Assembly: GCA_017474235.1 (NCBI GenBank)
Contig: JAFVIB010000009.1
Location: 1-64,000 of the forward strand
Length of the DNA stretch: 64,000 nucleotides
From: Alistipes sp.
GTDB taxonomy: Bacteria > Bacteroidota > Bacteroidia > Bacteroidales > Rikenellaceae
Direction of reading: 5' to 3'
Shown here: piece after piece, positions 22,542 through 60,795 of the stretch
Layout: each line of letters opens with the position of its first letter
Position numbering within the stretch: the stretch's first letter is position 1
Program-made: the position numbers and the translations under genes
Notes under the pieces: model-generated
The model's input: only the letters and a program-made list of their open reading frames with translations
What the model was told of the DNA's origin: nothing
The model's database searches: none

Positions 22542-22667
22542 AATAAGTCGTTTTAAGCAGATAGTTACAAGGCATACAAGAAACCGAGTCCGCAGCATAC
22601 TAAAGCGTATGTGAGGAACTCGGTTATTGATGTATAACGCAGTAAATACTGCTTAAAACGGCTTATT
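22542..22667 (-). repeat. Structured 3'-end element, copy C
   Basis: 19-bp outer stem (22542-22560 with 22649-22667, one G-T pair) whose right arm covers the stop codon of the GGGtGRT gene. Inside are ACCGAGT/ACTCGGT and the apical hairpin CATAC-TAAAGC-GTATG (22596-22611). The flanks CAAGGC (left) and AACGCAG (right) are shared with copy D at 47.2 kb. Strand is given as that of the gene it follows. Confidence 0.8.
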
Positions 22668-23661
22668 TCATTGCCTGCTGGATTGCAACAGCCACTGCCA
22701 CAGTAGCACCTACCATTGGGTTGTTACCCATACCAAGGAAGCCCATCATCTCAACATGTGCTGGTACTGATGATGATCCTGCAAACTGTGCGTCTGAGTG
22801 CATACGACCAAGGGTATCGGTCATACCGTATGATGCAGGACCTGCGCCCATATTATCTGGGTGGAGGGTACGACCGGTACCACCACCTGATGCTACTGAG
22901 AAGTACTTCTTGCCTGCAAGAACGCGCTCCTTCTTATATGTACCTGCTACAGGGTGCTGGAAACGGGTTGGGTTAGTAGAGTTACCTGTGATAGATACAT
23001 CTACATCCTCCTTCCACATAACTGCTACGCCCTCGCGTACATCATCTACACCGTAGCAACGAACCTTTGAGCGAAGACCATCAGAGTAAGCGATAGTCTC
23101 TACCTCGTGAACCTCACCTGTGTAGTAGTCAAACTGAGTCTGAACATAGGTAAAGCCGTTGATACGAGAGATAATCTTTGCAGCATCCTTACCAAGACCG
23201 TTAAGGATAACGCGGAGTGGGTTCTTACGAACCTTATTTGCCATCTCGGCAATCTTAATTGCACCCTCAGCAGCTGCGAAAGACTCGTGACCTGCAAGGA
23301 ATGCGAAGCACTGAGTCTCCTCACGAAGAAGACGAGCAGCGAGGTTACCGTGACCAAGACCTACCAGACGATCGTCTGCAACAGAGCCTGGGATACAGAA
23401 TGCCTGCAAGCCCTCGCCGATAGCCTCGGCAGCATCTGCAGCGTTTGTGCAACCCTTCTTAATAGCGATTGCAGCACCCACTACATAAGCCCACTTTGCA
23501 TTCTCAAAGCAGATTGGCTGAGTCTCCTCACACATTGTGTAAGGGTCAATGCCCTTTGCATCGCAGATAGCCTTTGCATCCTCGATGCCGTTGATACCAT
23601 ATTGTGCAAGCACAGCGTTAATCTTATCTATTCTGCGCTCATAGCTCTCAAATAATGCCAT
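22663..23661 (-). CDS. GGGtGRT protein (conserved, function unknown)
   Basis: 332 residues. The name-giving motif GGGTGRT lies at 259-265, in a very conserved-looking Gly/Met-rich C-terminal third (MGAGPASYGMTDTLGRMHSD begins there). No signal peptide or membrane span, so cytoplasmic. No catalytic fold is obvious. It follows a NifU/IscU-like scaffold gene after 34 nt with no promoter between, so the pair is co-expressed. I recall the pair from other anaerobes, always uncharacterised. A link to Fe-S metabolism is inference from the neighbour. Confidence 0.88.
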   Translation of the reverse strand: MALFESYERRIDKINAVLAQYGINGIEDAKAICDAKGIDPYTMCEETQPICFENAKWAYVVGAAIAIKKGCTNAADAAEAIGEGLQAFCIPGSVADDRLVGLGHGNLAARLLREETQCFAFLAGHESFAAAEGAIKIAEMANKVRKNPLRVILNGLGKDAAKIISRINGFTYVQTQFDYYTGEVHEVETIAYSDGLRSKVRCYGVDDVREGVAVMWKEDVDVSITGNSTNPTRFQHPVAGTYKKERVLAGKKYFSVASGGGTGRTLHPDNMGAGPASYGMTDTLGRMHSDAQFAGSSSVPAHVEMMGFLGMGNNPMVGATVAVAVAIQQAMK

Positions 23662-23695
23662 AATTCAATAATGTTTAAGGGTTTAACAATATGGT

Positions 23696-24388
23696 TTACT
23701 CGTGACGAGGGTCAATGTACTTAACTGCGTCCTTAAAGCGACCGTAAGAGCCCTTTGCCTTCTCAAGTGCCTCTACAGGCTCGATGCCCTTCTTTACGAA
23801 GTCCATAAACTTGCCGAGGTGAACGAACTCGTAACCGATAATCTCGTCGTTTGCGTCGAGACCCATACGAGTACAGTAGCCCTCTGCCATCTCAAGGTAG
23901 CGAGCGCCCTTTGCAAGAGTACCGAACATAGTACCTACCTGTGAACGAAGACCCTTACCGAGGTCCTCAAGAGATGCACCGATAACAAGACCGCCCTCTG
24001 AGAAAGCTGACTGAGTACGACCGTAAACAATCTGCTTGAACAGCTCACGCATTGCTGTATTGATAGCATCGCAAACAAGGTCAGTATTAAGAGCCTCGAG
24101 GATAGTCTTACCCGGAAGAATCTCTGAAGCCATAGCAGCAGAGTGAGTCATACCAGAGCAACCGATAGTCTCAACAAGAGCCTCCTGAATAATACCGTCC
24201 TTAACATTGAGGGTCAGCTTACAAGCACCCTGCTGTGGTGCACACCAACCAATACCGTGAGTAAGACCGGAAATGTCCTTAATCTCCTTGGCGCGAACCC
24301 ACTTGCCCTCCTCAGGAATAGGAGCAGACTCGTGATTTGCACCCTTCTTTACGCAGCACATCTGCTGCACTTCGTGTGAATAAATCAT
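23696..24388 (-). CDS. NifU/IscU-like iron-sulfur scaffold protein (GGGtGRT partner)
   Basis: 230 residues from the ATG at 24388 (MIYSHEVQQMCCVKKG). The earlier start at 24433 lies in the promoter. Cysteines at 11, 12, 49, 56, 77 and 106. The stretch ETIGCSGMTHSAAMASEILP then GKTILEAL matches the Cys-containing loop of IscU/NifU scaffolds. The protein is longer than IscU (~130), with an extra C-terminal half, so it is a variant. First gene of a two-gene operon. Confidence 0.85.
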   Translation of the reverse strand: MIYSHEVQQMCCVKKGANHESAPIPEEGKWVRAKEIKDISGLTHGIGWCAPQQGACKLTLNVKDGIIQEALVETIGCSGMTHSAAMASEILPGKTILEALNTDLVCDAINTAMRELFKQIVYGRTQSAFSEGGLVIGASLEDLGKGLRSQVGTMFGTLAKGARYLEMAEGYCTRMGLDANDEIIGYEFVHLGKFMDFVKKGIEPVEALEKAKGSYGRFKDAVKYIDPRHE

Positions 24389-24430
24389 AGAGCTTTTTAT
24401 TATTAAAAAATGTTTGTACACAATCTGTGA

Positions 24431-24438
24431 CAAAGATA
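24431..24438 (-). promoter_or_regulatory. Promoter -7 box (TATCTTTG) of scaffold/GGGtGRT operon
   Basis: Exact match, 42 nt before the ATG at 24388. Between 24439 and 24561 I see no other feature. Confidence 0.7.
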
Positions 24439-24561
24439 ATAATTTTTAGCGATAATTATGCCAATTACCACAAATTATTTTTTTTACATTTAAGAGATAA
24501 CTTTTAATAGCGCTCAATATTTGTTATAATCCATTATAGCAATACGGACTTTGGGAGCGCC

Positions 24562-24705
24562 AATTTTGTGATTAGAAGGTATTAGATACAACGCTCGGCA
24601 AAAAATGCTGACGATGGATAGTACTAAAGCGTACAGCCATTGTCAGCATTTTTTGTTAGCGGAAGCAGGTGCGCTCTTATATGCGCAAATACTCACAACA
24701 AAATT
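24562..24705 (-). repeat. Structured 3'-end element, copy A
   Basis: Outer arms AATTTTGT and ACAAAATT, the right one ending on the stop codon of the SRPBCC gene. A perfect 14-bp inner stem joins 24599-24612 to 24642-24655, with A-run and T-run at its base. Inside are ATGG/CCAT and the apical hairpin GTAC-TAAAGC-GTAC. The flanks CAACGCTCGGC and GTTAGCGGAAGCAGGTGC recur almost unchanged in copy B at 60.7 kb. The A/T runs could make it act as a terminator in either direction. Confidence 0.85.
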
Positions 24706-25112
24706 TAGATTTGATTAAAAGCCTGCGCAAACCCCTCCGCCGCCTGATCAAGACCTTTCTGAATCTTGCTGCCGACCATCATACGCATCATCATATTGAG
24801 TTCAGCGTGGAGGACCATTCGCATACGGGTATCGGTTGGGGTGACCTCGTGGAGTTGAATCCAAAAGGCAAAATCGATAGGCACGCCGCCGTCATCGCCC
24901 GTAATTTTGACATACTTACCCTCCTCCTTGGCAATCATACGGAGTTTAACGGTAAAGCCCTTAACCTTAAATGAGCAGGTATCCTCCGTAGCCTGCCACT
25001 GTTCGACCTTATCTGCCACGGCGGGTGTAAGGAGCGAAAAGTTTGATATAAACGGGAATATCTGCGATGCCGACTTAAAAATCTGACACTGTTTAGACTC
25101 GTACTTCTCCAT
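24705..25112 (-). CDS. SRPBCC-like small protein, conserved in Bacteroidota
   Basis: 135 residues, no signal peptide. It begins with a START/SRPBCC-like pattern: SKQCQIFKSASQIFPFISNF, then alternating beta strands (CSFKVKGFTVKLRMI, KYVKITGD) and a long C-terminal helix (KIQKGLDQAAEGFAQAFNQI). The fold usually binds a hydrophobic ligand; none is known here. Single gene with its own promoter, ending at the structured element. Confidence 0.65.
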   Translation of the reverse strand: MEKYESKQCQIFKSASQIFPFISNFSLLTPAVADKVEQWQATEDTCSFKVKGFTVKLRMIAKEEGKYVKITGDDGGVPIDFAFWIQLHEVTPTDTRMRMVLHAELNMMMRMMVGSKIQKGLDQAAEGFAQAFNQI

Positions 25113-25129
25113 AGTTGCTCAATTTTGTG

Positions 25130-25137
25130 CAAAGGTA
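25130..25137 (-). promoter_or_regulatory. Promoter -7 box (TACCTTTG) of SRPBCC gene
   Basis: Exact match, 17 nt before the ATG at 25112. Confidence 0.7.
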
Positions 25138-25184
25138 GTAAAAAAATGGAAAGTTTACTTTACTATTTAAGTATATTCTAAAAA

Positions 25185-26006
25185 TTAGTAAATATTTTTT
25201 ACAACCTCATACTTCTCTTTGAGCAGTTCGACCACAGCCTCTGTTGCTTTTGGGAAGACTTTTCGCAAATCTATCTCGTCTGTTGTAGTCAGGATACCCT
25301 TCAGATTGCGCATAAATGTATCCTTAATCTCGGTGGCGAGGTTTACCTTGACTATACCGTTTGATATAGCCTGCTGCACCATAGGGTGAGGTATGCCCGA
25401 GCTACCGTGAAGCACAAGAGCCACAGGGGTTGCTGCGTGAATCTGTGCAAGTCGCTCTATATCGAGCTTTGGAGCCTGCTTATAGAAGCCGTGTGCAGAG
25501 CCGATAGATACTGCCAAAGCATCTACACCGGTCTGCTCAACAAAGAGTTTTGCCTCTTCGGCTGTTGTAAAACCGCCACCCTGCTGTTGTCCGAGTTTTG
25601 CGACATAGCCCAACTCTGCCTCAACATTGACACCATAGGGAGCAGCGAGTTCAACAACGCGACGAGTAGTCTCCACATTCTTCTCAAAAGGCTCTTCACT
25701 TGCATCTATCATCACAGAGTCGAAACCTGCATCGAGGCATCGCTCGACAAGCTCAACGCTGCCACCGTGGTCGAGATGAATCCAGCCGTTCACGCCATAG
25801 TCTGCAATAGCTTGGCGAGCCATAGCCACAGACTGTTTCAGACCCATATAGTCGATGCTCGAGCGTGTGAGTTGCAACAACACAGGCGAAGAGGTTGCAG
25901 ATGCAGCACGCATAACACCCTGAAGGGTCTCAAGATTATAGAAATTTGTTGCCAACACGGCGCAGTGACGCTCTTGGCAATCTTTAAGAAGCTCTTTTAC
26001 ATTCAT
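25185..26006 (-). CDS. Class II fructose/tagatose-bisphosphate-type aldolase
   Basis: 273 residues, the size of GatY/KbaY and small FbaA enzymes. The catalytic Asp and zinc His are in WIHLDHGGS (~76-84), zinc ligands also in SIGSAHGFYK and LVLHGSSGIP, and the phosphate site near VNLATEIK. All active residues look intact. It cleaves or forms a ketose 1,6-bisphosphate; which one is not clear. Last gene of a phosphodiesterase-permease-aldolase operon, overlapping the permease by 4 nt. Confidence 0.85.
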   Translation of the reverse strand: MNVKELLKDCQERHCAVLATNFYNLETLQGVMRAASATSSPVLLQLTRSSIDYMGLKQSVAMARQAIADYGVNGWIHLDHGGSVELVERCLDAGFDSVMIDASEEPFEKNVETTRRVVELAAPYGVNVEAELGYVAKLGQQQGGGFTTAEEAKLFVEQTGVDALAVSIGSAHGFYKQAPKLDIERLAQIHAATPVALVLHGSSGIPHPMVQQAISNGIVKVNLATEIKDTFMRNLKGILTTTDEIDLRKVFPKATEAVVELLKEKYEVVKNIY

Positions 26007-27259
26007 TGTTTTTTATCCTTTAAGAAGAGGTGTTCGAGTAACATTATAATTATAATACCCATCACAAAGCCATTACCGACAATCGGGCGGAGCAGTGACG
26101 GAATAGTCTGCATTGCCGACTGCGGAGCAAAGGAGAGTACAATTGTAAACATAATCGGTATGGCGAGTGTCAGACCATCCTTAAAGCTCATTACAGCCGA
26201 TGTAGTCTGCATCATATGCAGTCCCGCAGCAATCTGTGTCGCCATAAGGTAGAGCAGCACAACGCCCATAACAGGCTGCGGAATTGTCAGCAACACCGAG
26301 ACAGCCTCCGGAATAAAAGCGAGGACAATCATCGCCACAGCTGCCGGCAGAACCGTATAGCGCGAAGCACACGATGTAGATGCTACAACGCCCGGGGAGA
26401 GCGAATAATCTACCGGACCTACAACGCCCATACTTCCACTGACAACATTCATAATACCCTGCACAATCATACCCCTCTTTTGGCGCGAGTCCATAGCATC
26501 TGCACCTACAAACTCGCCTAAAGATTGAACAGAGCCTATCTGATTGATAAACAGTGCTATATAGCAGAACACAAATGCTATTACAATACCCGCATCTATC
26601 TCTACCCCACTCAAAAAGAGCGTTGGAGCAACGCTATCGGTAACAAACTGAGTCGGGAAACCTGTAAAGCAGTAGTATATCAGCGAGCCTACGAGCATCG
26701 CCACAATAACCACCATAGACTTCCAAACCCCTTTAAGCAAACTATTTGCTACCGCCATAGAGATAACCGCCACCACAGCAAAGACCATTGCCAGCAGTTG
26801 GTGATTTTCGTCAGAGAATATCATCCCTACAATAGGTTTTGCCATTGTAAATGAGATAAGAACAACAATTGACACCACTATACGCGGAGTAAAAATGCGC
26901 TGCACCTTACGCATCAGACCAACGGCTGCCAGCAGGGCTATAATCACACCGCCGATGGCAATAGATGGATATATCGCCTCACTGCTACCTCCGTGTTGCG
27001 ATGCTGCGAGAATACCCATAAGCAGCACCGCCGCAGGACCTGCAACAAGAGGCAGACGATGACCCCATAGAGAGTTTACAATCATCGTCACGCCCATTAT
27101 GGCAAACAATTTCTGTGTAAAAATCAGCGTCTGACCCTCCGGAGCGATAAAGGTACTTGTCAGCACCACCGGAATAGATATCATCAGCCACTGAAGACCA
27201 TAGAGTAACATCGCCCCAAAGGCGGGGCGATCGTTTACATTATATCTGAACTGCATCAC
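26003..27259 (-). CDS. NCS2-family nucleobase (uracil/xanthine-type) permease
   Basis: 418 residues with 12-14 membrane spans. Family features: WLMISIPVVLTSTF at the start, LWGHRLPLVAGPAAVLL, the substrate region SVQSLGEFVGAD (~244-255), and GPVDYSLSPGVVASTSCASR. The QSLGEF stretch is atypical against the usual Glu-containing motif, so the substrate could differ from uracil or xanthine. Overlaps its neighbours by 4 nt on each side. Confidence 0.78.
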   Translation of the reverse strand: MMQFRYNVNDRPAFGAMLLYGLQWLMISIPVVLTSTFIAPEGQTLIFTQKLFAIMGVTMIVNSLWGHRLPLVAGPAAVLLMGILAASQHGGSSEAIYPSIAIGGVIIALLAAVGLMRKVQRIFTPRIVVSIVVLISFTMAKPIVGMIFSDENHQLLAMVFAVVAVISMAVANSLLKGVWKSMVVIVAMLVGSLIYYCFTGFPTQFVTDSVAPTLFLSGVEIDAGIVIAFVFCYIALFINQIGSVQSLGEFVGADAMDSRQKRGMIVQGIMNVVSGSMGVVGPVDYSLSPGVVASTSCASRYTVLPAAVAMIVLAFIPEAVSVLLTIPQPVMGVVLLYLMATQIAAGLHMMQTTSAVMSFKDGLTLAIPIMFTIVLSFAPQSAMQTIPSLLRPIVGNGFVMGIIIIMLLEHLFLKDKKQ

Positions 27260-28062
27260 TTACAAATCTCCTTTATCAGTTTTGTTGCAAGTACCGGATT
27301 ATCTGTTGTGATATAATCCACACCCTGCTCAATCACCCAGCGCAACTGCTGCTCGTCATCTACTGTCCAAACATTTACAGTAAGACCCAAATCGTGGCAC
27401 TGCTTAATCCAATGAGGCTTCTTCTTGAGTACATCATACTTATAGTCGATGCCCGAAAGGTGCATACCATATACATACTCAGGGTCGTAGTCACCATTTA
27501 GGTAGGCAATGGCTGTACCCTGCGGTGCAAGACGCTTCAGCTCGGTACATACCCACGGACGGAAGGCGATATACTCTACCATATCGTTAAGACCATACTT
27601 GGCAACCATATCGACCGTGCGCTGGACAATCTCACTCTCCTTTGCCGGTGTATAGTGGCTCTTAATCTCGATAATAAGCTTTGTCTTTTTACTCTTCTTG
27701 AGCTGCTCCAAGTACTGCTCCAAAGTTGGGATAGTCTCGCCATTCTCAAGCGGAATAGCTTTCAGCTCCTCGTATGTACTACGCTGAATATCAAGACGCT
27801 TGATATTCTCACCGCGCTTATATATCTTATCGGGATGCAGACCACCGTGAGCCACCACAATCACGCCGTCTGCCGTAAGGTTAATATCACACTCCGAACC
27901 GTAAAGACCCATCTTCTGCGCCTGCTTGAGAGCCTCGATAGAGTTACGACAAGAGCCGTCTATTGCGTGATAACCGCGATGTGCAACAACTTTAGGCTGA
28001 GCCAAAGCAGATACCGACACCATTGCGGCAACTGCTACTGTAACAATCTTTTTCATAAACAT
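27256..28062 (-). CDS. Glycerophosphodiester phosphodiesterase, exported
   Basis: 268 residues from the ATG at 28062. A longer frame to 28122 crosses the promoter and is rejected. The signal peptide KKIVTVAVAAMVSVSALA is followed by VVAHRGYH with the first catalytic His. GSECDINLTADGVIVVAHGG holds the metal Glu and Asp and the second His (Gly follows where Asp is usual). It hydrolyses glycerophosphodiesters in the periplasm. First gene of the operon with the permease and aldolase, which hints at use of lipid-derived or nucleotide-type substrates. Confidence 0.85.
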   Translation of the reverse strand: MFMKKIVTVAVAAMVSVSALAQPKVVAHRGYHAIDGSCRNSIEALKQAQKMGLYGSECDINLTADGVIVVAHGGLHPDKIYKRGENIKRLDIQRSTYEELKAIPLENGETIPTLEQYLEQLKKSKKTKLIIEIKSHYTPAKESEIVQRTVDMVAKYGLNDMVEYIAFRPWVCTELKRLAPQGTAIAYLNGDYDPEYVYGMHLSGIDYKYDVLKKKPHWIKQCHDLGLTVNVWTVDDEQQLRWVIEQGVDYITTDNPVLATKLIKEICK

Positions 28063-28079
28063 AGTCTTTATTTTGCTAA

Positions 28080-28087
28080 CAAAATTA
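28080..28087 (-). promoter_or_regulatory. Promoter -7 box (TAATTTTG) of phosphodiesterase operon
   Basis: Exact match, 17 nt before the chosen ATG. It decides the start of the gene. Confidence 0.7.
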
Positions 28088-28129
28088 GAAATTTTCCGTA
28101 AAACATACAATTTATTCTCCAAAAAATAT

Positions 28130-28137
28130 TATCTTTG
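28130..28137 (+). promoter_or_regulatory. Promoter -7 box (TATCTTTG) of epimerase gene
   Basis: Exact match, 33 nt before the ATG at 28171. Confidence 0.7.
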
Positions 28138-28170
28138 CGAGAGTAGAACATAATTTAACACACTAATAAT

Positions 28171-28839
28171 ATGGCTAATAAAATTTCAGTATCGGTAATG
28201 TGCTCAGATCTTATGAATCTCGAGCGCGACATTAAGACCCTTGAGCGCAACGGCATCGATTGGTTGCATATCGATGTTATGGATGGTCACTTTGTTCCAA
28301 ATATGACATTTGGTCCCGACTTCCCTAACGCTATGCACAAGGTTACAAATATGCCTCTCGACATCCACCTTATGTGCGAGGAGCCTGAGTTTATCTGCTC
28401 AAAGATTGATGTTCACGAGGGCGACATCGTCTCTACACATGTTGAGCTTGACAAGGATTTGAGCGATTTTGCTGCCGATATTCACTCTAAGGGTGCTATG
28501 TTTGGCGTTGTAGTAAATCCGGACACCCCTGTCGAGGCTGTAGCTCCACACATGGCATATACAGACATGGTTACTCTGATGCTCGTTCATCCGGGTTTCT
28601 CAGGTGCAAAGCTCGTAGATGGTATTCTTGATAAGGTTGCACAGATGCGCCAGTGGCTCGACAGCAATGGCTATGAGAAGGTACTTATCAGTGTTGATGG
28701 CTCAGTATCTTGCGAGCGTGCAGAGCTTATGGCAGGTATGGGTGCAAATGTATTTGTGGGTGGTACTGCCGGCGTATATCGCAAGGGTATGACCCTCGAT
28801 GAGTCTATTCCACAGCTGCGTGCTGCTATATCAAAGTAG
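28171..28839 (+). CDS. Ribulose-phosphate 3-epimerase-family protein
   Basis: 222 residues, TIM barrel. WLHIDVMDGHFVPNMTFGPD (~31-50) carries a metal His and catalytic Asp, DIHLMCEEPE follows, LVHPGFSGAKLVDGIL is the phosphate-side loop, and VDGSVS holds the second Asp. Metal and catalytic residues are in place. Sequence details differ enough from housekeeping Rpe that allulose-6-phosphate or another ketose phosphate could be the substrate. It starts a two-gene operon with the YbaK-like gene. Confidence 0.85.
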   Translation: MANKISVSVMCSDLMNLERDIKTLERNGIDWLHIDVMDGHFVPNMTFGPDFPNAMHKVTNMPLDIHLMCEEPEFICSKIDVHEGDIVSTHVELDKDLSDFAADIHSKGAMFGVVVNPDTPVEAVAPHMAYTDMVTLMLVHPGFSGAKLVDGILDKVAQMRQWLDSNGYEKVLISVDGSVSCERAELMAGMGANVFVGGTAGVYRKGMTLDESIPQLRAAISK

Positions 28840-28840
28840 T

Positions 28841-29335
28841 ATGAGCGAAAGACAAGAGCGTGTGTTCGATTTTCTGCAACAGCAGGGAATCGAATACACT
28901 TTTTATACACACCCCGAGGCTCCAACTATCGAGATTGCCCGCCAATATTGGCACAACGACGGCTCAAAGCACTGCAAAAACCTCTTTTTTCGCAACCATA
29001 AGGGTAACCGTCACTACCTTGTAGTCTTTGATAGTGAGCAGACACTCGCCATTCACGACCTTGAGCACCGACTCAAGCAGGGCAAGCTCTCTTTTGCTTC
29101 CGAGCAGCGTATGGAGCGATACCTCGGTCTAAAGCCAGGGTCTGTCTCCCCATTTGGACTGATAAACGACACAGAGAATCACACACACCTTTTTCTCGAC
29201 AAGAAGTTGCTTGACTACCCCTCTCTGAGCTTTCATCCAAACGACAACACTGCCACGGTGGTTATCTCGCAGCAGATGTTTGCAAAGTATCTTGCAGCAG
29301 TGGGAAATAGTTACGAGTATATTGAATTGTATTAA
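28841..29335 (+). CDS. YbaK/ProX-type aminoacyl-tRNA deacylase domain protein
   Basis: 164 residues from the ATG at 28841, one base after the epimerase stop. Matches PrdX/ProXp-type editing proteins: YTFYTHPEAPTIEIARQYW, KNLFFRNHKGNRHYLVVF, and GSVSPFGLINDTENHTHLFL. These hydrolyse mischarged tRNA-Pro (Ala- or Cys-tRNA-Pro) in the cytoplasm. The link with the epimerase seems one of convenience. Confidence 0.87.
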   Translation: MSERQERVFDFLQQQGIEYTFYTHPEAPTIEIARQYWHNDGSKHCKNLFFRNHKGNRHYLVVFDSEQTLAIHDLEHRLKQGKLSFASEQRMERYLGLKPGSVSPFGLINDTENHTHLFLDKKLLDYPSLSFHPNDNTATVVISQQMFAKYLAAVGNSYEYIELY

Positions 29336-29343
29336 CAAAAAAA

Positions 29344-29368
29344 ACGAGGCAAATGCCTCGTTTTTTTT
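29344..29368 (+). terminator. Bidirectional terminator between convergent genes
   Basis: ACGAGGCA, loop AA, TGCCTCGT with an A-run before and eight T after; works on both strands. Confidence 0.9.
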
Positions 29369-29801: not shown

Positions 29802-29802
29802 A

Positions 29803-33298: not shown

Positions 33299-33299
33299 T

Positions 33300-47220: not shown

Positions 47221-47229
47221 ATTGTTGTA

Positions 47230-47332
47230 TAACAAGAGAGATTTCAAGGCTTGCAAAGCCCGAAAAAGCAGAGTTTACTTAAGCGTAAATGAGCATTTTG
47301 AGGGCAAGCGTAACGCAGAAATCACCTTGTTA
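47230..47332 (-). repeat. Structured 3'-end element, copy D
   Basis: Outer stems TAACAAG/CTTGTTA and GATTTC/GAAATC, then GCTTGC/GCAAGC and GCCC/GGGC. The apical hairpin is TTTAC-TTAAGC-GTAAA. Flanks CAAGGC and GTAACGCAG match copy C. It lies 17 nt after the stop of the gene at 47350 (minus strand) and before the terminator. Confidence 0.8.
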
Positions 47333-47349
47333 GGCAGCTTCTTTGTGTA

Positions 47350-47733
47350 CTATGCAAGTTTCTGTGGCTTCCGATCCGTCATCCCATTAGCCTCTTCTGC
47401 CATCGAACTTTGCAGTTGTACCATTCTTATAACCGCGTCACAGTCGAGTGCAGGAGCCACAGTATAGTCTATCGGCATATTCCACTGAATCTGTAAATCG
47501 AGCAGTGATGAGGCAATTTGTGCATTATACTCACGGCTGATGACAATAGTACAATCCACATCGGTATATTCGGCAAAGAAGAGTGCGCCGAGGGCGAGCT
47601 GAAACGATGGTACATATTTAACAACGACATTCTCGTCCGCGCAACCACTCTGCTTAAGGCAAGTGAGTGCAGACCAAATATCGAGTCCCTGCTCGGCAAC
47701 AATACCGACTTTTATCTCCGATGGTGATATCAT
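47350..47733 (-). CDS. Degenerate lumazine synthase (RibH)-like protein
   Basis: 127 residues from the ATG at 47733, against ~155-165 for RibH. The order of strands fits RibH: KVGIVAEQG, then NVVVKYVPSFQLALGALFFA (matching the VPG.FE region), then DCTIVISREYN. The loop with the N-terminal aromatic substrate contact is shortened, and the block that holds the catalytic His (G.TPHFDYV in true RibH) is absent. It should not make lumazine; perhaps structural or a relic. I recall ribH beside a TPR gene and recF in other Bacteroidales. Confidence 0.6.
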   Translation of the reverse strand: MISPSEIKVGIVAEQGLDIWSALTCLKQSGCADENVVVKYVPSFQLALGALFFAEYTDVDCTIVISREYNAQIASSLLDLQIQWNMPIDYTVAPALDCDAVIRMVQLQSSMAEEANGMTDRKPQKLA

Positions 47734-47796
47734 AACTTGTAAAAAGAGAGTCGAGAGTACTACTCCCAACTCTCTACTTATTTGATAGTCTGTAAA

Positions 47797-52976: not shown

Positions 52977-53013
52977 CATTGGCTCTCCACTATGAAGAGC
53001 CAATGGCATTTTT
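52977..53013 (+). terminator. Terminator after the large lipoprotein gene
   Basis: CATTGGCTCT and AGAGCCAATG, 10-bp stem, 9-nt loop, then GCATTTTTAAT. It may be partial so that downstream genes get some read-through. Confidence 0.8.
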
Positions 53014-53033
53014 AATCTAAGAAGCTAACCATT

Positions 53034-53519: not shown

Positions 53520-53538
53520 CAAACTGTTTTCTAACACA

Positions 53539-55131
53539 ATGAAGAGACTAATTTTTTCGGTTGTAGCCCTCTGTTCGCTCCTCTCAGCCTCGGCACAGAT
53601 AACCCTTGGCGAGAAGGGTGGTGTAATCTCGGGCAGTATCGAGAGTAACAATATCGTCTATTTCAACGATAAGGCACTCTCTACCCCTGCGCCTGATACA
53701 CACTTCGGCTCAAACGACTATATCAAGGTCGATTATGCTATCGACCGCTTCTCGGCAGGTATCCAACTTGAGACCTACCTGCCAGCCCTTCAGGGTTACG
53801 AGATTGGCAACTACGGTAAGCAATTTAAGGTTCTTACCCCTATGGTCTATGCACAGTGGCAGGACAAGAGCTACTCTGTAACTGTAGGTAATCTCTACGA
53901 CCAATTTGGTAACGGACTGATTTTCCGTACATTCGAGGACCGTCAGCTCGGTTTTAACAACACTCTGCTCGGTGTTCGCGCAACGGCTAATATCGGCAAC
54001 TATGTCGCAGTAAAGGCACTCTACGGTCGCCCACGCCTATATACAAACTATAAGAGTTGTTGGGCAGGTGGCGCAGATTTGAGCCTCTCGCTTGGCGATA
54101 TGTTCGGTATGAAGCAGGGCTCACTCTTTATCGAGGGTAGCTATGCCAACAGAATGGATGATCAGATTGGCAAGGCGACTGACAACCTCCTTAATATGTA
54201 CTCGGCTCGCCTGAATATGGATATTGCAGGTGTTACCCTCCGCGGAGAGTATGCCGGCAAGGGTATTGATAAGTCAAATGCCTCTAATTCATCAGATAAG
54301 GGCAAGGCTATCTATGGAGAGTTGGGTTACTCTGTTGGTAACTTCAGCTTTACCGCTATGGGTCGTGTGCTGGACAAGATGGGTACACCTCTCTGTGCAA
54401 CAGGTAACGGCACGGGCAATACCCTTAACTACCTCCCTGCACTTACTCGCCAATATACCTATATGCTTGCAAACCTCAACCCTTATCAGGTAAATGTCGA
54501 GGGCGAGGTTGGTGGTCAAGCAGACTTCTACTACTCATACCGTAGCAAGACAAACCGTTACCGCTATTGGAATATCCACGCAAACTACTCTACCTACTAC
54601 ACTCTTCGTAAGAGTCAGAGTAAGAGCGGTAACCGTGAGCGTCTGTGGCAGGATATAAATGTAGATGTAGAGCGTCAGTGGGGCAAGAAGCTCAAAACTA
54701 CGCTCCTCTACTCTTTCCAAGAGTGGAATCCATACCACGGTTATCACCACCGCACCTATGTATCGAACATCTTTGTTGCCGATGTGCAGTACAAGTTCAA
54801 CCGCAAGACCTCTATGCGCGTAGAGGCTCAGTATCTGCTTTCAGGCGAGTACGAGGGCGATTGGGTAGCAGGTTTGGTCGAGTTTAACCTCGCGCCAAAG
54901 TGGAGTTTCTTTGTGAGCGATATGTACAATATCGGTCGAACAGACAGAAATGGCGAGTACAAAGGCACAAAGAAGAACTACTACTCTGTTGGCGGTAGCT
55001 ACACAATCAAGCGTACACGCATACAGCTGAGCTATGGCAGAAACCGTGCAGGATTTATCTGCTCGGGCGGTGTATGTCGCTACTCTCCTGAGTATAACGG
55101 AATCAACATTGCTGTAACCTCTTCATTCTAA
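53539..55131 (+). CDS. DUF6029-like outer membrane beta-barrel protein
   Basis: 530 residues from the ATG at 53539 (signal peptide KRLIFSVVALCSLLSASA). The body is built of amphipathic beta strands with Tyr at the ends (KYVLLS-like pattern: TVGNLYDQFGNGLIFRTFED, YSFQEWNPYHGYHHRTYVSN), and ends in Phe, as outer membrane barrels do. I place it in the DUF6029 family from memory. It may carry or export the lipoprotein partners. Starts 19 nt after the TlpA gene, ends 5 nt before the Omp28 gene. Confidence 0.75.
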   Translation: MKRLIFSVVALCSLLSASAQITLGEKGGVISGSIESNNIVYFNDKALSTPAPDTHFGSNDYIKVDYAIDRFSAGIQLETYLPALQGYEIGNYGKQFKVLTPMVYAQWQDKSYSVTVGNLYDQFGNGLIFRTFEDRQLGFNNTLLGVRATANIGNYVAVKALYGRPRLYTNYKSCWAGGADLSLSLGDMFGMKQGSLFIEGSYANRMDDQIGKATDNLLNMYSARLNMDIAGVTLRGEYAGKGIDKSNASNSSDKGKAIYGELGYSVGNFSFTAMGRVLDKMGTPLCATGNGTGNTLNYLPALTRQYTYMLANLNPYQVNVEGEVGGQADFYYSYRSKTNRYRYWNIHANYSTYYTLRKSQSKSGNRERLWQDINVDVERQWGKKLKTTLLYSFQEWNPYHGYHHRTYVSNIFVADVQYKFNRKTSMRVEAQYLLSGEYEGDWVAGLVEFNLAPKWSFFVSDMYNIGRTDRNGEYKGTKKNYYSVGGSYTIKRTRIQLSYGRNRAGFICSGGVCRYSPEYNGINIAVTSSF

Positions 55132-55136
55132 AGGCT

Positions 55137-56582
55137 ATGAGAAAGTTTTTATATACACTAATCGCTATTGCAGCGACACTCTTGACAACATCTTGTCTAT
55201 ACGGTTTAGGTAGTGACGATGGTCTTGAGATTGAGGATACTTCGGGCTTTAAGGTAGAGGTTTCGTCAAATGTTATCTCGGCAGATGGCGAGGATATAGC
55301 TGTATTCCGCGCATTTTACAATGGCGAGGAGGTTACCTCTGAGTGTACTCTCTACAACACCACAGCAAACGAGACTATGGAGGATATGAGCTTCTCGACC
55401 TATGTGCCGGGTATGTATATGTTCTATGTCAAGTATCAGGATTATCAGAGTGAGAGTATTACCGTCACAGCCGTTGTAGATATCGACTTCAGCGACAAGG
55501 AGGAGAGCGGACTGAGTGTTACCCTCTCGACAAACTTGGTACAGGTAAGTCAGGGCTATGCTGCATTTATAGTTCGCTACAATGGTAAGGTAATTCTTCC
55601 TGATGAGATTGAGAAGGTCAAGTTCTACGATGCCGAGACTGACAGTCCGATTACTGTCGATTACACAGCCTTTGTATCAGAGTCGGGAACAGAGTATGTT
55701 CTGCCTGCATATGTAGCAATAGAGGTGGGCACAAAGAGTTTTTGGGCAAGTTATAAGACCTCTAATACACGCGAGACTCCGGTATCTATCATCTCTGTAA
55801 ACTCCAAAATTCCGGCTCGTCCTGCCGATGCAGAGCCTAATAATCTCGACTTTAAGCACCGCGCACTCTTCACTCAGCTTACAGGTACTTGGTGCGGATA
55901 CTGCCCTAATATGATTGCAGCATTCCACTATATGTTTGAGGAGGCAAACTATAAGGATAAGTTTGTACACACAGCAGTTCACGGTGGCGACAAGTTTGCT
56001 ACCACGCTGCCTGACGGTCGTGATTTGGCAAGCATCCTCAACACATCGGGAGGCTACCCTTACACTATCGCAAATCTCTCTTATGGTCTTTCGACAAATA
56101 ATAGCCTTGAGAACAATATCGGTGCTATTATGGGTGCTATTGAGGGTACTATGAAGAGCGAGGCGCGCGCAGGTATTGCAGCCCGTACAGAGCTGAAAGA
56201 CAATATGTTGCTTATCCGTGCATCTGTCAAGGCTTCGCACGCGGGCGAGTACTATATCGGTGCTTGGTTGGTGGAGAGTAACCTTCAGGCAGCGCAGAGT
56301 AACTATACAGATATTAAGGAGGACTTTCTTGATATTCACGAGAATGTTGTTCGTATTGCAGATAGCAACACAACCAACTTCTTGGGTCATCCACTCGGAA
56401 ATATCGGCAAGGGAGAGCGTGCAGACCACCTCTTCATTATGGAGCTTGACCCATCGTGGAAGGTAGAAAACTGCCACTTGGTGCTCTTCGCCTCAACTGT
56501 GCAGTTTAACTCGCTGACTATGACAAATGCAGTTAAGACTACATCTCTTACTTCGGGTGTCGATTTCGAGTACAAGAAGTAA
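55137..56582 (+). CDS. Omp28-related lipoprotein with thioredoxin-like CxxC
   Basis: 481 residues. The lipobox is LTTSC (Cys20). Ig-like beta segments (~30-130, 130-230) precede the Omp28 region with FTQLTGTWCGYCPNMIAAF (~248-266), where CGYC is a thioredoxin-type site. The C-terminal domain has EYYIGAWLVESNLQA and HENVVRIADSNTT. Surface-exposed in related bacteria. Last gene of the module, followed by a strong terminator. Confidence 0.85.
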   Translation: MRKFLYTLIAIAATLLTTSCLYGLGSDDGLEIEDTSGFKVEVSSNVISADGEDIAVFRAFYNGEEVTSECTLYNTTANETMEDMSFSTYVPGMYMFYVKYQDYQSESITVTAVVDIDFSDKEESGLSVTLSTNLVQVSQGYAAFIVRYNGKVILPDEIEKVKFYDAETDSPITVDYTAFVSESGTEYVLPAYVAIEVGTKSFWASYKTSNTRETPVSIISVNSKIPARPADAEPNNLDFKHRALFTQLTGTWCGYCPNMIAAFHYMFEEANYKDKFVHTAVHGGDKFATTLPDGRDLASILNTSGGYPYTIANLSYGLSTNNSLENNIGAIMGAIEGTMKSEARAGIAARTELKDNMLLIRASVKASHAGEYYIGAWLVESNLQAAQSNYTDIKEDFLDIHENVVRIADSNTTNFLGHPLGNIGKGERADHLFIMELDPSWKVENCHLVLFASTVQFNSLTMTNAVKTTSLTSGVDFEYKK

Positions 56583-56600
56583 CAGAACATAATCTATCGA

Positions 56601-56637
56601 AATAGGGGTTTTATTTGAAAAATCCCTATTTTTATTT
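56601..56637 (+). terminator. Terminator of the Omp28 operon
   Basis: AATAGGGGTTTT pairs with AAAATCCCTATT over 12 bp (one G-T), 6-nt loop, then TTTATTT. The coaD promoter begins at its tail. Confidence 0.85.
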
Positions 56638-56644
56638 ACCTTTG
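56637..56644 (+). promoter_or_regulatory. Promoter -7 box (TACCTTTG) of coaD-lpxD operon
   Basis: Exact match, only 8 nt before the coaD ATG, so the leader is at most a few bases. Confidence 0.65.
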
Positions 56645-56652
56645 TAGCTAAT

Positions 56653-57123
56653 ATGAAGAGAATTGCACTTTTCCCGGGTTCGTTTGACCCATTTACTCGC
56701 GGTCACGAGTCACTTGTCGAGGGGGCTTTAAGGCTCTTTGACGAGGTTGTTATCGCTGTGGGCGAGAATGTCTCAAAGCGAGGTCTGCTCACTGTCGAGC
56801 AGCGTCAGAGGCTCATCTCTGACCGCTATGCCGGCGAGGAGAGGGTCAAAGTAACATCGTACAGCTGCCTTACAGGCGACTTTGCTCGTCAGGTGGGTGC
56901 TGTGGCGATGATTAGAGGTATCAGAAATACTACCGACTTCAACTTTGAACGCTCTATAGAGGCTACAAACCGACGCATATTTCCGGAGATTACAACCGTG
57001 ATGCTCGTAACACCCGATGAGTATGCACATATCTCGTCAAGCATCGTCAGGGAGCTTCTCAGCTTCGGTCACGATGTGGCTGAGTTTATGCCCGAAGGCA
57101 TTGATATTAAGAACTATTTGTAA
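56653..57123 (+). CDS. coaD: Phosphopantetheine adenylyltransferase
   Basis: 156 residues. GSFDPFTRGHESL (9-21) holds the T/HxGH nucleotide site, MIRGIRNTTDFNFE the substrate loop, and SSSIVRELLSFG the ISSTxVR-like motif (here SSSIVR). It makes dephospho-CoA from phosphopantetheine and ATP. First gene of a four-gene operon with lpxD and two exported proteins. Confidence 0.95.
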   Translation: MKRIALFPGSFDPFTRGHESLVEGALRLFDEVVIAVGENVSKRGLLTVEQRQRLISDRYAGEERVKVTSYSCLTGDFARQVGAVAMIRGIRNTTDFNFERSIEATNRRIFPEITTVMLVTPDEYAHISSSIVRELLSFGHDVAEFMPEGIDIKNYL

Positions 57124-57141
57124 TTTTATAGGATAGATAAC

Positions 57142-58179
57142 ATGCAATTTACAGCTGAAATGATTGCCGGACTTATCTCCGGCGAAGTAGTTGGCGACAA
57201 GAACGCTACAGTACATACAGTATCTTCGATAGAGGATGGCAAAGAGGGAGGTCTTGCCTATCTGTCTAATCCTAAATATGAGCAGTATCTATACACTACT
57301 CGTTGCTCTATCGTGCTGGTGGATAAGGCTTTCGAGCCGAAGAGCGAGGTTGCAGCTACCCTTATTAAGGTCGAGAATGTGGGTGCTTGTGTACTCCAAC
57401 TGCTTCAGATGTATCAGGCAATGAAGCCACAGAAGAGCGGCATCTCCCCTCGCGCATCTATCTCCGAGAAGGCGACTATTGGTCAGAACTGCTATATCGG
57501 CGACTTCGCCGTTATTGAGGCTGGTGCTGTTGTGGGCAATGGCGTAAAGATATATCCACAGTGCTATGTGGGCGACAATGTGAAGGTGGGCGATAATACC
57601 ACTCTCTACCCTCGCGTGACTATCTATGAGGGCTGCTCTGTGGGTAACCGCTGCATTATCCACGCAGGCGCAGTTATCGGTGCTGACGGCTTCGGCTTTG
57701 CTCCAAATGCGGCAGGTGGTTTCGACAAGATTCCGCAGCTGGGTAATGTGATTATCGAGGACGATGTAGAGATTGGTGCAAACACCTGTATCGACCGTGC
57801 AAAGACCGACTCGACAATTATCCGTCGTGGTGTGAAGCTGGACAACCTTATTCAGGTGGGTCACAATGTACAGATTGGCGAGAATACCGTATCTTCAGCG
57901 CAGATGGGTATTGCCGGTACATCCAAAGTTGGTAAAAACTGCTTCCTCGCAGGTCAGGTGGGCATTGCCGACCATATTACCGTGGGCGACAATGTAAAGA
58001 TTGGTTCACAGAGTGGTATCGACCGCGATGTTCCTTCGGGTGAGGTACGCTTCGGTTCACCTGCACTCAAGGGTATGGGCTACTACCGCAGTTTTGCAGT
58101 CTTTAAGGAGCTTCCTGAGATGGCACGACAGCTCCGAGCTTTGGAGAAAAAGGTTGCCGAACTTACAAAGGAGGAGTAA
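57142..58179 (+). CDS. lpxD: UDP-3-O-acyl-glucosamine N-acyltransferase
   Basis: 345 residues. The N-terminal uridine-binding domain (1-100) is followed by hexapeptide repeats ([20 protein letters not shown] onwards) and the C-terminal helices. The catalytic His241 is in [18 protein letters not shown] is also conserved. It adds the N-linked acyl chain in lipid A synthesis, so the cell is a true Gram-negative. Lies 18 nt after coaD; the DUF4369 gene begins 2 nt later. Confidence 0.96.
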
Positions 58180-58181
58180 CG

Positions 58182-58811
58182 ATGATTTTAGCACTTATCC
58201 TTACACTACTCTTCGGAGGCTGCAACAGAGACGCTGACAGCTATCTGATTGAGGGTACTACAGCCAAGCAGAGTGGCTACTACTATCTGCTTGAGGGGTA
58301 CAACATTGTCGATTCGGCAGAAGTCGTAAATGGTCACTATCGCTTTGAAGGTCAGATAGATGCCCGCGTACCGGTACGCAACATCGCCAGCGCATCGAGT
58401 GCAATTGAGGTTGTGGGCAATACACGCTTTGCGCAGGTTATCCTTGAGGGTGGCACTATAGAGGTGTCGGAAGATGACTACAGCCCGACAGGAGGTCTGA
58501 AGGTTGTCGGCACAAAGGGTAATGAGGCGATGTACAACTTCGCTGTTGAGGCTATGGCTCTGCAAGAGCAGATTAGAGATTGTTTCGACAACACTACCCG
58601 CAAGCGTCTGATGACTCGCTACGAGAAGTTGGTCGATAGAACGATAAGGCGAAACCTTGACAACTACGCCGGCGTCAATCTGCTTATGGCAAGCGGTGGC
58701 AGATACAGCGCAGAGCAGCGCAGAGAGTTTATTGAGCGAATGAGCAGCAGTATGCGTCAGACAGAGGCTGTAGAGAGTATGATTGAAAATTTAAACACAA
58801 ATAATAACTAA
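58182..58811 (+). CDS. DUF4369-like lipoprotein
   Basis: 209 residues. A short signal with lipobox FGGC (Cys14). The beta-rich first half (YLIEGTTAKQSGYYYLLEGY, NGHYRFEGQI) fits DUF4369, which is usually found before a thioredoxin domain; here the protein stops after a helical part with no thioredoxin. It looks like a truncated paralogue of the next gene, which has the same N-terminal layout. Coupled to lpxD. Confidence 0.75.
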   Translation: MILALILTLLFGGCNRDADSYLIEGTTAKQSGYYYLLEGYNIVDSAEVVNGHYRFEGQIDARVPVRNIASASSAIEVVGNTRFAQVILEGGTIEVSEDDYSPTGGLKVVGTKGNEAMYNFAVEAMALQEQIRDCFDNTTRKRLMTRYEKLVDRTIRRNLDNYAGVNLLMASGGRYSAEQRREFIERMSSSMRQTEAVESMIENLNTNNN

Positions 58812-58812
58812 T

Positions 58813-59877
58813 ATGAAGAAGATTTTTGCAATTTTGGCAGTAGCAGCAGTGGCTGTAGGCTGCAATAACCACCGCTCAACAATCAGCGGTAATGTCCTCG
58901 GCATTGAGGATGGCACTATCTACTTGGCAGAGGCAGGTCGTAACGGTGCTTTGGTAGATTCTACAGAGATTAAGGGCGGCAAGTTCGTCTTTAATATTGA
59001 CGATGCAGCACAGTTGCTCACCCTGCGTACAGCAGAGGAGGGCGTGGCTGCCGTATTTACAGAGGATGGTAATATTACTGTCGAGGGTAACCTTGCAGAT
59101 AACTCTGTGAAGGCTGTAGGTACACCTGCAAACGATGCATTCAACGCCTACAACGAGGCTATGACATCAATCAACCAGCGTTATGCCGAGGCTGAGGATG
59201 CAGAGGCGCGTAAGGCTATCTATGAGGAGTATAACACATTTGTCGAGCAGACTATCGAGAGCAATATGGGCAATATCTTCGGTGTCTTCATGTTCATAGA
59301 GAACAAGAGCTACGAGCTGTCTGCAGCAGAGATGGTGAAGAGCCTCAACTCCCTGAGCGAGGAGCTTAAGAGCCTGCCATTGGTGACTAAAACTATCGAG
59401 AAGGCTACACGCAAGATGCGCACAGAGCCAAAGAGAGAGGGTAGCGACTTTATCCCTACATACATCAACATCGAGCAGCCAAATGTCGATGGTACAGCAG
59501 TATCTCTTCAGAGCGTTGTCGAGAAGCAGGGCAACAAGTATGTACTGCTCGACTTCTGGGCTTCTTGGTGCAATCCTTGCATGGGCGAGATGCCATATCT
59601 GAGAGCTGCTTACGCGAAGTACCACAAGAAGGGCTTTGAGATTTACGGTGTCTCTTTCGATAGCAAAGCCGAGGCTTGGAAGAGTGCAATCGAGAAGCAG
59701 GAGATGAAGTGGGTCAATGTTAGCATCCTCCAGAGCTTCAATAACCCTGCAGCTGAGGATTATGTTGTCGAGAGCATCCCTACAAACTTCCTTATCGACT
59801 GCTCAAATGGCGAGATTATCGCTAAAAATCTCCGTGGCGAGGCTGTAGCAGAGAAGCTTGCTGAGCTGCTGAAGTAA
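58813..59877 (+). CDS. Lipoprotein thiol-disulfide reductase (DUF4369-TlpA)
   Basis: 354 residues. The lipobox is AVGC (Cys17). DUF4369 (~20-115), helical linker, then a TlpA domain from ~215 with FWASWCNPCMGEMPYL (redox CNPC) and SIPTNFLIDCSNGEII. Periplasmic, inner- or outer-membrane-anchored redox protein. It starts 1 nt after the truncated sister gene. Ends at a terminator shared with ruvC. Confidence 0.9.
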   Translation: MKKIFAILAVAAVAVGCNNHRSTISGNVLGIEDGTIYLAEAGRNGALVDSTEIKGGKFVFNIDDAAQLLTLRTAEEGVAAVFTEDGNITVEGNLADNSVKAVGTPANDAFNAYNEAMTSINQRYAEAEDAEARKAIYEEYNTFVEQTIESNMGNIFGVFMFIENKSYELSAAEMVKSLNSLSEELKSLPLVTKTIEKATRKMRTEPKREGSDFIPTYINIEQPNVDGTAVSLQSVVEKQGNKYVLLDFWASWCNPCMGEMPYLRAAYAKYHKKGFEIYGVSFDSKAEAWKSAIEKQEMKWVNVSILQSFNNPAAEDYVVESIPTNFLIDCSNGEIIAKNLRGEAVAEKLAELLK

Positions 59878-59895
59878 GAGTAAATCACAAGATAG

Positions 59896-59929
59896 AAAAA
59901 GAGAGTTTTTAAATAAACTCTCTTTTTTT
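59896..59929 (+). terminator. Bidirectional terminator
   Basis: GAGAGTTT/AAACTCTC flanked by an A-run and a T-run, between convergent TlpA and ruvC genes. Confidence 0.88.
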
Positions 59930-60536
59930 ATTGAATCACCTTTTTTGGATTCTCCGCCACAAACTGCTCCCACGACTTCGTACCACGCTTTCGAGCGGTC
60001 TTTTCGCCACCAAGACCCTTAATGCGAGAAGAGCCGAGTGCCTGATTTATAGGGCTTGAGATGCTATAATAGTGGGTTAGAGCCACAGCCATACCATCTG
60101 TAGCATCCAAACGACGCGGAGGGTCGGCAAACTTCAATGTTCGAAGAACAATCGATGCTACTTGCTCTTTTGAGGCTGCACCACTACCTGTAATCGACTG
60201 CTTTATGCGCGTAGGGGCATACTCGGCAACACTCTTATTACAGCTCAACGCAGCTGCCATAGCCACACCCTGCGCACGACCGAGCTTGAGCATACTCTGC
60301 ACATTTTGCCCAAAGAATGGCGACTCAAGAGCCACCTCTCGCGGAGAGTAATTATCTATCAACTCTCTTACACGCTCAAAGATATAACGCAACTTGTCAT
60401 ACGGGTCGGCAATCTTGTGCAGGTCAATATCTCCCATAACCACAGCCCGAAGCTGATTTCCCTCAACCTCAAGTACGCCATAACCCATATAATTAGTTCC
60501 CGGGTCAATGCCAAGAATACGAAACGGTCTATCCAT
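59928..60536 (-). CDS. ruvC: Holliday junction endonuclease RuvC
   Basis: 202 residues. The four acidic residues are Asp11 (GIDPGTNYMGYG), Glu71 (VALESPFFG), Asp144 and Asp147 (RLDATDGMAVALTH). It cuts Holliday junctions after RuvAB migration. The C-terminus is extended by a basic tail (KGLGGEKTARKRGTKSWEQF) compared with the ~173 residues of E. coli RuvC. Single gene. Confidence 0.95.
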   Translation of the reverse strand: MDRPFRILGIDPGTNYMGYGVLEVEGNQLRAVVMGDIDLHKIADPYDKLRYIFERVRELIDNYSPREVALESPFFGQNVQSMLKLGRAQGVAMAAALSCNKSVAEYAPTRIKQSITGSGAASKEQVASIVLRTLKFADPPRRLDATDGMAVALTHYYSISSPINQALGSSRIKGLGGEKTARKRGTKSWEQFVAENPKKVIQ

Positions 60537-60552
60537 TGTTATATTGTTTTCA

Positions 60553-60560
60553 CAAAGATA
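60553..60560 (-). promoter_or_regulatory. Promoter -7 box (TATCTTTG) of ruvC
   Basis: Exact match, 16 nt before the ATG. Between 60561 and 60667 I see no other feature. Confidence 0.65.
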
Positions 60561-60667
60561 GTGATTTTTATCAACACTACCCTTTTTGTTGTTATAACTT
60601 TCGTATTCAGCTTATAGTTCGCACCGATTTTATCGTCAGAATTTGTACTCCGCTCACACTCTGCACC

Positions 60668-60795
60668 ATTTTGTTGTCAAAATACGGTAGATGCAACGCT
60701 CGGCAAAAATACCCGCGAAGGGTAGTACTGTGCGTACGACCCTTTGCGGGTACTTTTTGTTAGCGGCAGCAGGTGCCGTATTTTCACAACAAAAT
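60668..60795 (-). repeat. Structured 3'-end element, copy B
   Basis: Outer arms ATTTTGTTGT/ACAACAAAAT and AAAATACGG/CCGTATTTT with one mismatch; the right end touches the stop codon of the 108-residue gene. Inside are TACCCGC/GCGGGTA, AAGGGT/ACCCTT and the apical hairpin GTAC-TGTGC-GTAC. Flanks CAACGCTCGGC and GTTAGCGGCAGCAGGTGC match copy A at 24.6 kb, while the stem sequences differ and stay paired. Confidence 0.85.

Follow-up and report, generated by a model that had tools for sequence, protein, structure and literature searches.

Structured palindromic repeats behind stop codons in Alistipes sp., a probable ERIC/IRU-type family in Bacteroidota

Four long hairpins lie close to the 3' ends of genes in a stretch of 64 kb from Alistipes sp. 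(assembly GCA_017474235.1, contig JAFVIB010000009.1, positions 1 to 64,000 of the forward strand), the whole of which is called the window below. This locus raises the question of what these hairpins are and how they came to stand there. An initial annotation had described them as a family of structured 3'-end elements, with paired changes in several stems, that it could not match to any named family. The analysis presented here makes it probable that they are palindromic repeats of the ERIC/IRU type, i.e., short, non-coding, non-autonomous and mobile elements that each form one long interrupted hairpin. ERIC, also named IRU or RU-1, are 127-bp elements of Enterobacteriaceae and Vibrionaceae, according to excerpts of two articles (PMC2759123, PMC10969869). 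In our best explanation, one of the two subtypes found here (type I) is the form widespread in Bacteroidota and the other (type II) is a derivative, seen so far only in the genus of the window (Alistipes-like metagenome-assembled genomes, MAGs). What is new is the wider host range of ERIC-type elements, a divergent subtype, tandem arrays and, within a single genus, a sharp rule of placement at stop codons; no report of such elements in Bacteroidota was found among the matches listed for the open-licence literature.

Structure, subtypes and copy number

The four elements, named A to D in the order of their coordinates, are present where they had been announced. They measure about 105-146 nucleotides (nt) and each folds into one main, long and interrupted hairpin on the + strand, with energies of -54.1, -52.8, -32.4 and -72.7 kcal/mol for A, B, C and D (z-scores of -8.8, -7.7, -3.2 and -12.0); the predicted fold of B also has a side hairpin. 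Among 200 dinucleotide shuffles of each, 0, 0, 1 and 0 fold equally well. All four lie on the same strand and the opposite one folds more weakly in every case (-50.5, -48.2, -28.9 and -66.1 kcal/mol). The stems quoted in the initial annotation do exist, its letters being assigned in another order ("A and B" for the elements at 24562 and 60668, "C and D" for those at 22542 and 47230).

Two related subtypes carrying the same apical motif, TACTnnnGCGTA, can be distinguished. Type I (copies A and C) is characterized by the link segments CAAGGC and AACGCAG, already noticed in these two copies (22542 and 47230), and type II (copies B and D) by CAACGCTCGGC and GTTAGCGG..GCAGGTGC. Two other copies from the same genome, L012 and L029, are chimeric, their type I core being enclosed in type II arms, and thus indicate that the subtypes exchange modules.

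The genome from which the window comes (1.97 Mb, hereafter its own genome) contains 30 matches of the apical pattern vs 4 of the reversed pattern. After folding, 12 of the 30 were dropped; the other 18, which by eye are the centres of such hairpins, supplied two alignments, A1 (12 rows, including copy D, whose apical motif is one base shorter and had been missed by the pattern) and A2 (7 rows). With R1, the covariance model of type II, at least 108 distinct places are found in the own genome; 105 reach E<1e-6 and one of the rest is only 50 nt long (134 rows reduced to 109 by rule, two of these being both strands of the 50-nt place). This set includes a few type I or chimeric copies and, like the other numbers obtained from genome searches, represents a lower bound. 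In 14 of the 18 contigs of this genome that hold two or more R1 places, all of them are on one strand. Neighbouring copies form head-to-tail tandem arrays repeating about every 122-134 bp, truncated copies are also present, and near-identical cores are found at unrelated genes (e.g., L006, L010 and L019).

Mini-units of about 42 bp (ATTTTGTTGTCAGAGTTTGCACTC...TGCACY), apparently remnants of old copies, flank full elements on their left in L024, L022 and L041.

Covariation and the folded strand

The paired stem changes first noticed in four copies extend to the whole family. Type II was examined in 121 distinct copies (E<=1e-13, taken from 99 sources, weaker copies being left out): 93.2% of the cells pair vs 73.1% in shuffles, and both partners are changed in 928 cells vs 230 +/- 15, such double changes being seen in 38 of 43 pairs. 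When the partner is shifted by 1-3 columns, pairing falls to 34-47%. In the same way, 95.0% of the cells pair in type I vs 72.3% in shuffles (67 copies, taken at E<=1e-6 from 74 sources), with 454 doubly changed cells vs 118 and changes on both sides in 30 of 35 pairs. These alignments were fitted to their models and so lean towards them, although the margin is large. Searches with covariance models, which the initial annotation had proposed together with a count of covarying pairs, give many matches in genomes. All four copies form one superfamily and do not represent chance hairpins.

The pairs also indicate which strand is folded. Where Watson-Crick pairs predominate in a column, there are 273 G·T cells vs 56 A·C cells in type II and 59 vs 11 in type I, and G·T is the commonest pair in three more columns of type II and one more of type I. 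Since a G·T pair is an A·C mismatch on the other strand, the strand that carries TACTnnnGCGTA is the folded one. The models were built on this strand, which may bias the ratio; the fold energies of single copies agree with it. This strand is antisense to the gene that the element abuts. At 131 of 170 sites it is also the strand richer in C, which may merely follow gene direction. Thus, covariation together with the preference for G·T over A·C bears out a conserved and strand-specific structure instead of chance hairpins. It supports a single-stranded form, RNA or DNA, and defines a structure that is open to compensatory mutation.

Relationship with ERIC and other known repeats

Blastn with L275, a type I copy from elsewhere in the phylum, gives matches in 5375 of 5426 Escherichia coli genomes (median of four places, core of 50-60 nt), which drew attention to the repeats of enterobacteria. 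The ERIC/IRU consensus, as printed in an excerpt of PMC2759123, shows on its other strand the same order of segments as type I. The two share AAGGC, the series GGAG-stem-TAC..GTA-stem-TGA and AACGCAG, and TAACGCAG is also found in an ERIC copy of Klebsiella pneumoniae. Both are single long imperfect palindromes of similar length (about 127 bp for ERIC, about 130 nt here) and non-coding, ERIC being intergenic and the Alistipes elements located at gene 3' ends, and the own genome has no match to the four transposase or reverse transcriptase families tested.

This likeness was assessed with R2, the covariance model of type I, which was built only from Bacteroidota and without any proteobacterial sequence. 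In each of five fetched stretches that carry an ERIC (four distinct sites, the ybhI site being taken from two strains), the best match of R2 is the ERIC over its full length, with E values of 7e-5 to 1.3e-3, the next match having an E value of 0.5. The model picks the predicted ERIC strand, opposite to the published reading direction. When 50 kb of E. coli DNA was added to four of the stretches (from E. coli and Klebsiella; L290, which repeats the ybhI site of L289, was omitted), the ERICs scored 19.8-24.3 bits and the background at most 11.9 bits. Furthermore, all five ERICs fold better on the strand equivalent to that of type I, by 9.7 to 16.9 kcal/mol. Only one base separates ybhI from the ERIC in E. 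coli (same site in two strains), and six bases separate potI from the ERIC in Klebsiella aerogenes, both in the same orientation as in Alistipes.

Other relatives reach 35.5-47.6 bits with R2: a repeat located between rlmKL and ycbX in E. coli (47.6 bits), a similar copy from another E. coli record, one from Aeromonas (35.5 bits) and one on a Comamonas plasmid, whose match stops a single base short of the stop codon of an oppositely oriented gene. The rlmKL/ycbX repeat differs from the Alistipes elements by longer outer arms and by its location between divergent genes. This repeat may already bear a name in older publications. The E. coli matches of L275 are partial, and not all their places correspond to this site.

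The absence of any named family, as first stated, therefore no longer holds for type I, which shares its architecture, loop segments and preferred strand with ERIC/IRU. By the terms of the initial annotation, such kinship with a known repeat counts in part against its reading. Rfam offered no counterpart: at gathering scores, a scan of the window returns two tRNAs only; a loose scan around copy D gives three matches far under gathering scores and no credible family, and 15 type I loci give nothing at E<=1. The elements differ from ERIC by the phylum of their hosts, by the type II link segments, by the tandem arrays and by the tight placement at stop codons in the genus.

Two other groups of repeats deserve mention. 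YPAL/RU-2 of Yersinia is also a long palindromic repeat (168 bp) and targets sites beside dyad symmetry (PMC2229807, in excerpt); an identity with it was rejected, as the RU-2 sequence, in its printed form, lacks, by eye, the shared segments. REPs, or GTAG- and CGTC-tagged palindromes, are dispersed and sometimes supply stop codons to the flanking open reading frames (PMC3733652, in excerpt), and at 20-40 bp they are several times shorter than the Alistipes elements.

Placement behind stop codons and turnover

The description of these hairpins as 3'-end elements proved correct, each of the four adjoining the stop of an oppositely oriented gene. The right end of the arm overlaps the stop in copies A (22663-22665) and D (60795-60797), an older arm remnant lies between copy B and the stop at 24705-24707, and copy C is the loosest, its stop being about 10-17 nt past the right arm.

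The same arrangement is found in the genus, as judged from open reading frames instead of annotated genes and from loci that were mostly fetched because they bear an element. The open frame on the right is on the opposite strand in 94 of the 102 copies with enough flank, and the stop lies 65-68 nt from the centre, i.e., about at the end of the arm, in 61 of the 122 copies with a stop 30-110 nt away. Such a hairpin is carried by 146 of the 1120 gene 3' ends in the fetched loci. It starts 0 nt past the stop in 67 of these 146 and 0-2 nt past it in 100, a class that includes only 4 of 129 intrinsic terminators from the same loci (Fisher p 4.6e-33). In this comparison, 974 gene ends had no called element; 42 of them were excluded because of an apex-like pattern, and the simple rule used found no terminator at 803 further ends. 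The stops at occupied ends are TAA (93), TAG (41) and TGA (12); the common feature is therefore the stop codon and not a fixed triplet. For type I in all groups, a coarse measure (the fold runs into the flanks) puts the stop near the right end of the stem in 46 of 74 copies and near the left end in 19. Thus, the tight rule is shown for the genus and holds only loosely for type I elsewhere. The 0-2 nt placement is a strong clue to mechanism.

Orthologous gene ends of less than 96% identity were compared for turnover: both members are occupied in 33 pairs, one in 40 and neither in 92. The probability of being occupied is 0.62 when the partner is occupied vs 0.18 when it is not, a contrast that is probably underestimated, since the classifier calls several true elements empty (e.g., L010, L022 and L058) and some one-sided pairs are really occupied on both sides. 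Species that share a site often have different cores there, and several of the empty orthologues have, by eye, an ordinary terminator about 15-45 nt past the stop. Short arm remnants, such as TTTTATCGTG or TTTTGTTGTGATAACGCGGC, are often found between the stop and a full element (L024, L062, L101, L115, L125 and L140), and far-side remnants are found in flanks from the own genome such as that of L024. From these examples, which were read and not counted, new copies seem to enter older ones.

A short tandem-like repeat, GGCTAATGGCTAACGGCTAAC, occurs in the left flanks of elements from other members of the genus (L084, L153, L154, L162 and L168).

Distribution across genomes

R1 was searched in 41 genomes, and the wider samples of the order and phylum with R2. 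R1 has matches in 13 of the 41, all from the same genus (13 of 25 genus genomes, own genome included, vs 0 of 16 others). When named genomes were scanned with a pattern, 89 stretches matched, and every one came from Alistipes sp. or Rikenellaceae MAGs and, where the host is stated, from the hindgut of cattle, goat or deer. With R2, type I was found in 46 of 61 genomes of the genus, 64 of 247 genomes of the order (55 of 174 genera) and 36 of 296 genomes of the phylum sample (8 of 140 genera), the own genome being included each time; 30 of these last 36 belong to a single family with two genera. A genome negative for R1 need not be free of elements, as exemplified by G001, which has no R1 match and yet carries type I copies. 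Within one genus, the number of elements ranges from no match to about a hundred per genome, so that the missing mobiliser of these Bacteroidota relatives can be searched for by co-occurrence.

Blastn of copy D and of another Bacteroidales copy gave no match in phages or plasmids, and blastn of L275 gave partial matches in 24 plasmid records. An exact pattern found the Bacteroidales form in 0 viral contigs and the other form in three.

The IMG/VR contigs L279, L280 and L281 carry elements that score 24-39 bits with R2, perhaps by true phage carriage, perhaps because bacterial DNA was misfiled as viral.

Mode of spread and alternative explanations

Elements are seen beside stop codons and inside older copies. 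If they are indeed ERIC-type mobile repeats, the strand asymmetry suggests that a mobilising enzyme would move the folded strand as a single-stranded hairpin, made of DNA or RNA, with new copies landing at gene 3' ends and within older copies. Once placed, they would be transcribed as the first part of the 3' untranslated region (UTR) and fold there. This may alter the stability of the mRNA 3' end, by analogy with Yersinia, where excerpts of two articles report that ERICs at gene 3' ends change mRNA stability through an RNase E site (PMC2229807, PMC10969869). The mechanism of ERIC transfer itself was not elucidated as of 2007 (PMC2759123, in excerpt). A more ambitious and rather doubtful proposal is that ERIC represents one branch of an ancient cross-phylum class of hairpins, whose machinery recognises the folded strand and inserts it beside stop codons and into older copies, perhaps by a step coupled to translation or mRNA. 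A conserved host enzyme could then be the partner, and this would account for the lack of any known one next to ERIC.

Several observations weigh against the assignment to the ERIC type. The R2 scores of ERICs are modest, and stop geometry is lacking at two of the four ERIC sites (psuT ends 54 nt away and sgrR runs in the opposite direction) as well as at the rlmKL/ycbX element. For type I in all groups, the coarse measure finds a stop no more than 6 nt from the right end in only 19 of 74 copies (5 of 74 for the left end). R1 has no match at E<=1 in 21 fragments (5 ERIC, 4 other proteobacterial, 8 from other Bacteroidales and 4 from other Bacteroidota), so that type II joins ERIC only via type I, through the shared apex and the chimeras L012 and L029. 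ERIC is marked by 5'-TA-3' termini and a TA target duplication; such termini were not seen, by eye, on type II, which ends in ATTTTG...CAAAAT with no regular TA on the left; the claim is therefore restricted to ERIC-type elements and does not extend to ERIC proper. Finally, none of the four enzyme families searched in the 61 genus genomes provides a candidate mobiliser. Y1_Tnp has no Pfam match in any of them, those with many copies included. DDE_3 (PF13358, IS630-type DDE) gives a weak match in two, over the cut-off in none, and none in the own genome. RVT_1 reverse transcriptases occur in 20 genomes and Transposase_20 (IS110-type) in two, and neither in the own genome with its approximately one hundred copies. 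A miniature inverted-repeat transposable element derived from IS630 thus finds no partner here, although a missing partner is compatible with past mobilisation.

Among the alternatives, the least improbable, while still unlikely, is a host-owned conserved RNA element of the 3' UTR, multiplied by ordinary duplication and maintained by selection because of its function (a terminator, a 3'-end protector or a protein-binding site), in place of a mobile repeat. It would account for the position and orientation behind stop codons, for the strong covariation and for the tendency of orthologous genes to share an element (0.62 vs 0.18). However, it fits poorly with the 15 of 61 genus genomes without an R2 match, with the ordinary terminators that by eye replace the element at several empty orthologues, with near-identical cores at unrelated genes of one genome (L006, L010, L019), and with tandem arrays and truncated copies; no U-tract was seen at the end of any of the four hairpins in the window. 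The paired changes could also be explained without selection on a folded strand, by template-switch correction of quasi-palindromes at replication. The near-perfect outer arms, which change freely, and the arm remnants, which hint at exchange between copies, go in this direction, but such a process would neither produce an excess of G·T over A·C nor preserve particular unpaired segments at the scale of a phylum. We consider it improbable as the origin of the pattern; it could still act as a secondary force.

Two other explanations draw on known systems. Y1 transposases are linked to REPs, and REP-like palindromes moved by such an HUH enzyme on lagging-strand single-stranded DNA would give the fixed strand asymmetry, the hairpins, the dispersed and tandem copies, the folded strand on the C-rich strand (131 of 170) and the 14 of 18 multi-copy contigs with a single orientation of R1 places. 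This skew and this strand bias may only follow gene orientation, however; the elements are several times longer than REPs, and the absence of Y1_Tnp from 61 of 61 genus genomes, many-copy ones included, makes this origin very improbable. As for attC sites of integron-type cassettes, they are defined by an invariant GTT in the R box. Hairpins with conserved unpaired bases directly behind stop codons recall them, and copy C even carries GTTAGGC and TAAC boxes, but by eye the GTT box is kept neither among type I copies nor in type II, the copies lie dispersed, and the same gene is found with no element at some orthologous sites. This last reading is largely refuted.

Features of the window and minor observations

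The coordinates of the elements, of their apical motifs and of the neighbouring genes are collected in Table 1, together with the E. coli relative of type I.

Table 1. Palindromic elements of the window, apical motifs, adjacent genes and an E. coli relative
Feature	Position	Strand	Description	Model score
Copy A	22542..22667	+	Type I core CAAGGC ... CGCAGCATACTAAAGCGTATGTGAGG ... TAACGCAG, long outer arms	R2 97.9 bits; in R2 training set
Copy B	24562..24707	+	Type II	R1 135.1 bits at 24560-24696; in R1 training set
Copy C	47223..47341	+	Type I, between two convergent genes	R2 123.2 bits; in R2 training set
Copy D	60666..60797	+	Type II, most regular of the four	R1 128.2 bits; in R1 training set
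Apical motif TACTnnnGCGTA of copy A	22598..22609	+	Pattern match	
Apical motif of copy B	24622..24633	+	Pattern match	
Apical motif of copy C	47276..47287	+	Pattern match	
Gene with copy A at its 3' end	22663..23661	-	Pfam GGGtGRT	
Gene with copy B at its 3' end	24705..25112	-	Weak CoxG-like match, just below cut-off	
Gene with 3' end beside copy C	47350..47769	-	No Pfam match at E 0.001	
Gene with copy D at its 3' end	60795..61121	-	Weak DUF6385 match, below cut-off	
Repeat between rlmKL and ycbX, E. coli	L282:565-680		Unannotated palindromic repeat related to type I	

Two hairpins, one in L151 (after the stop at 4773, - strand) and one at L219:18318-18439, have an apex that resembles the apical stem of type II, GGGCTGTAC..GTACAGCCC. 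One of them is an ordinary-looking terminator, and they could be reduced derivatives or result from exchanges with terminators. Copies are also located at the starts or ends of contigs (C17, C34 and C38 of G001; C4, C16 and C94 of G111), and such repeats may break metagenome assemblies.

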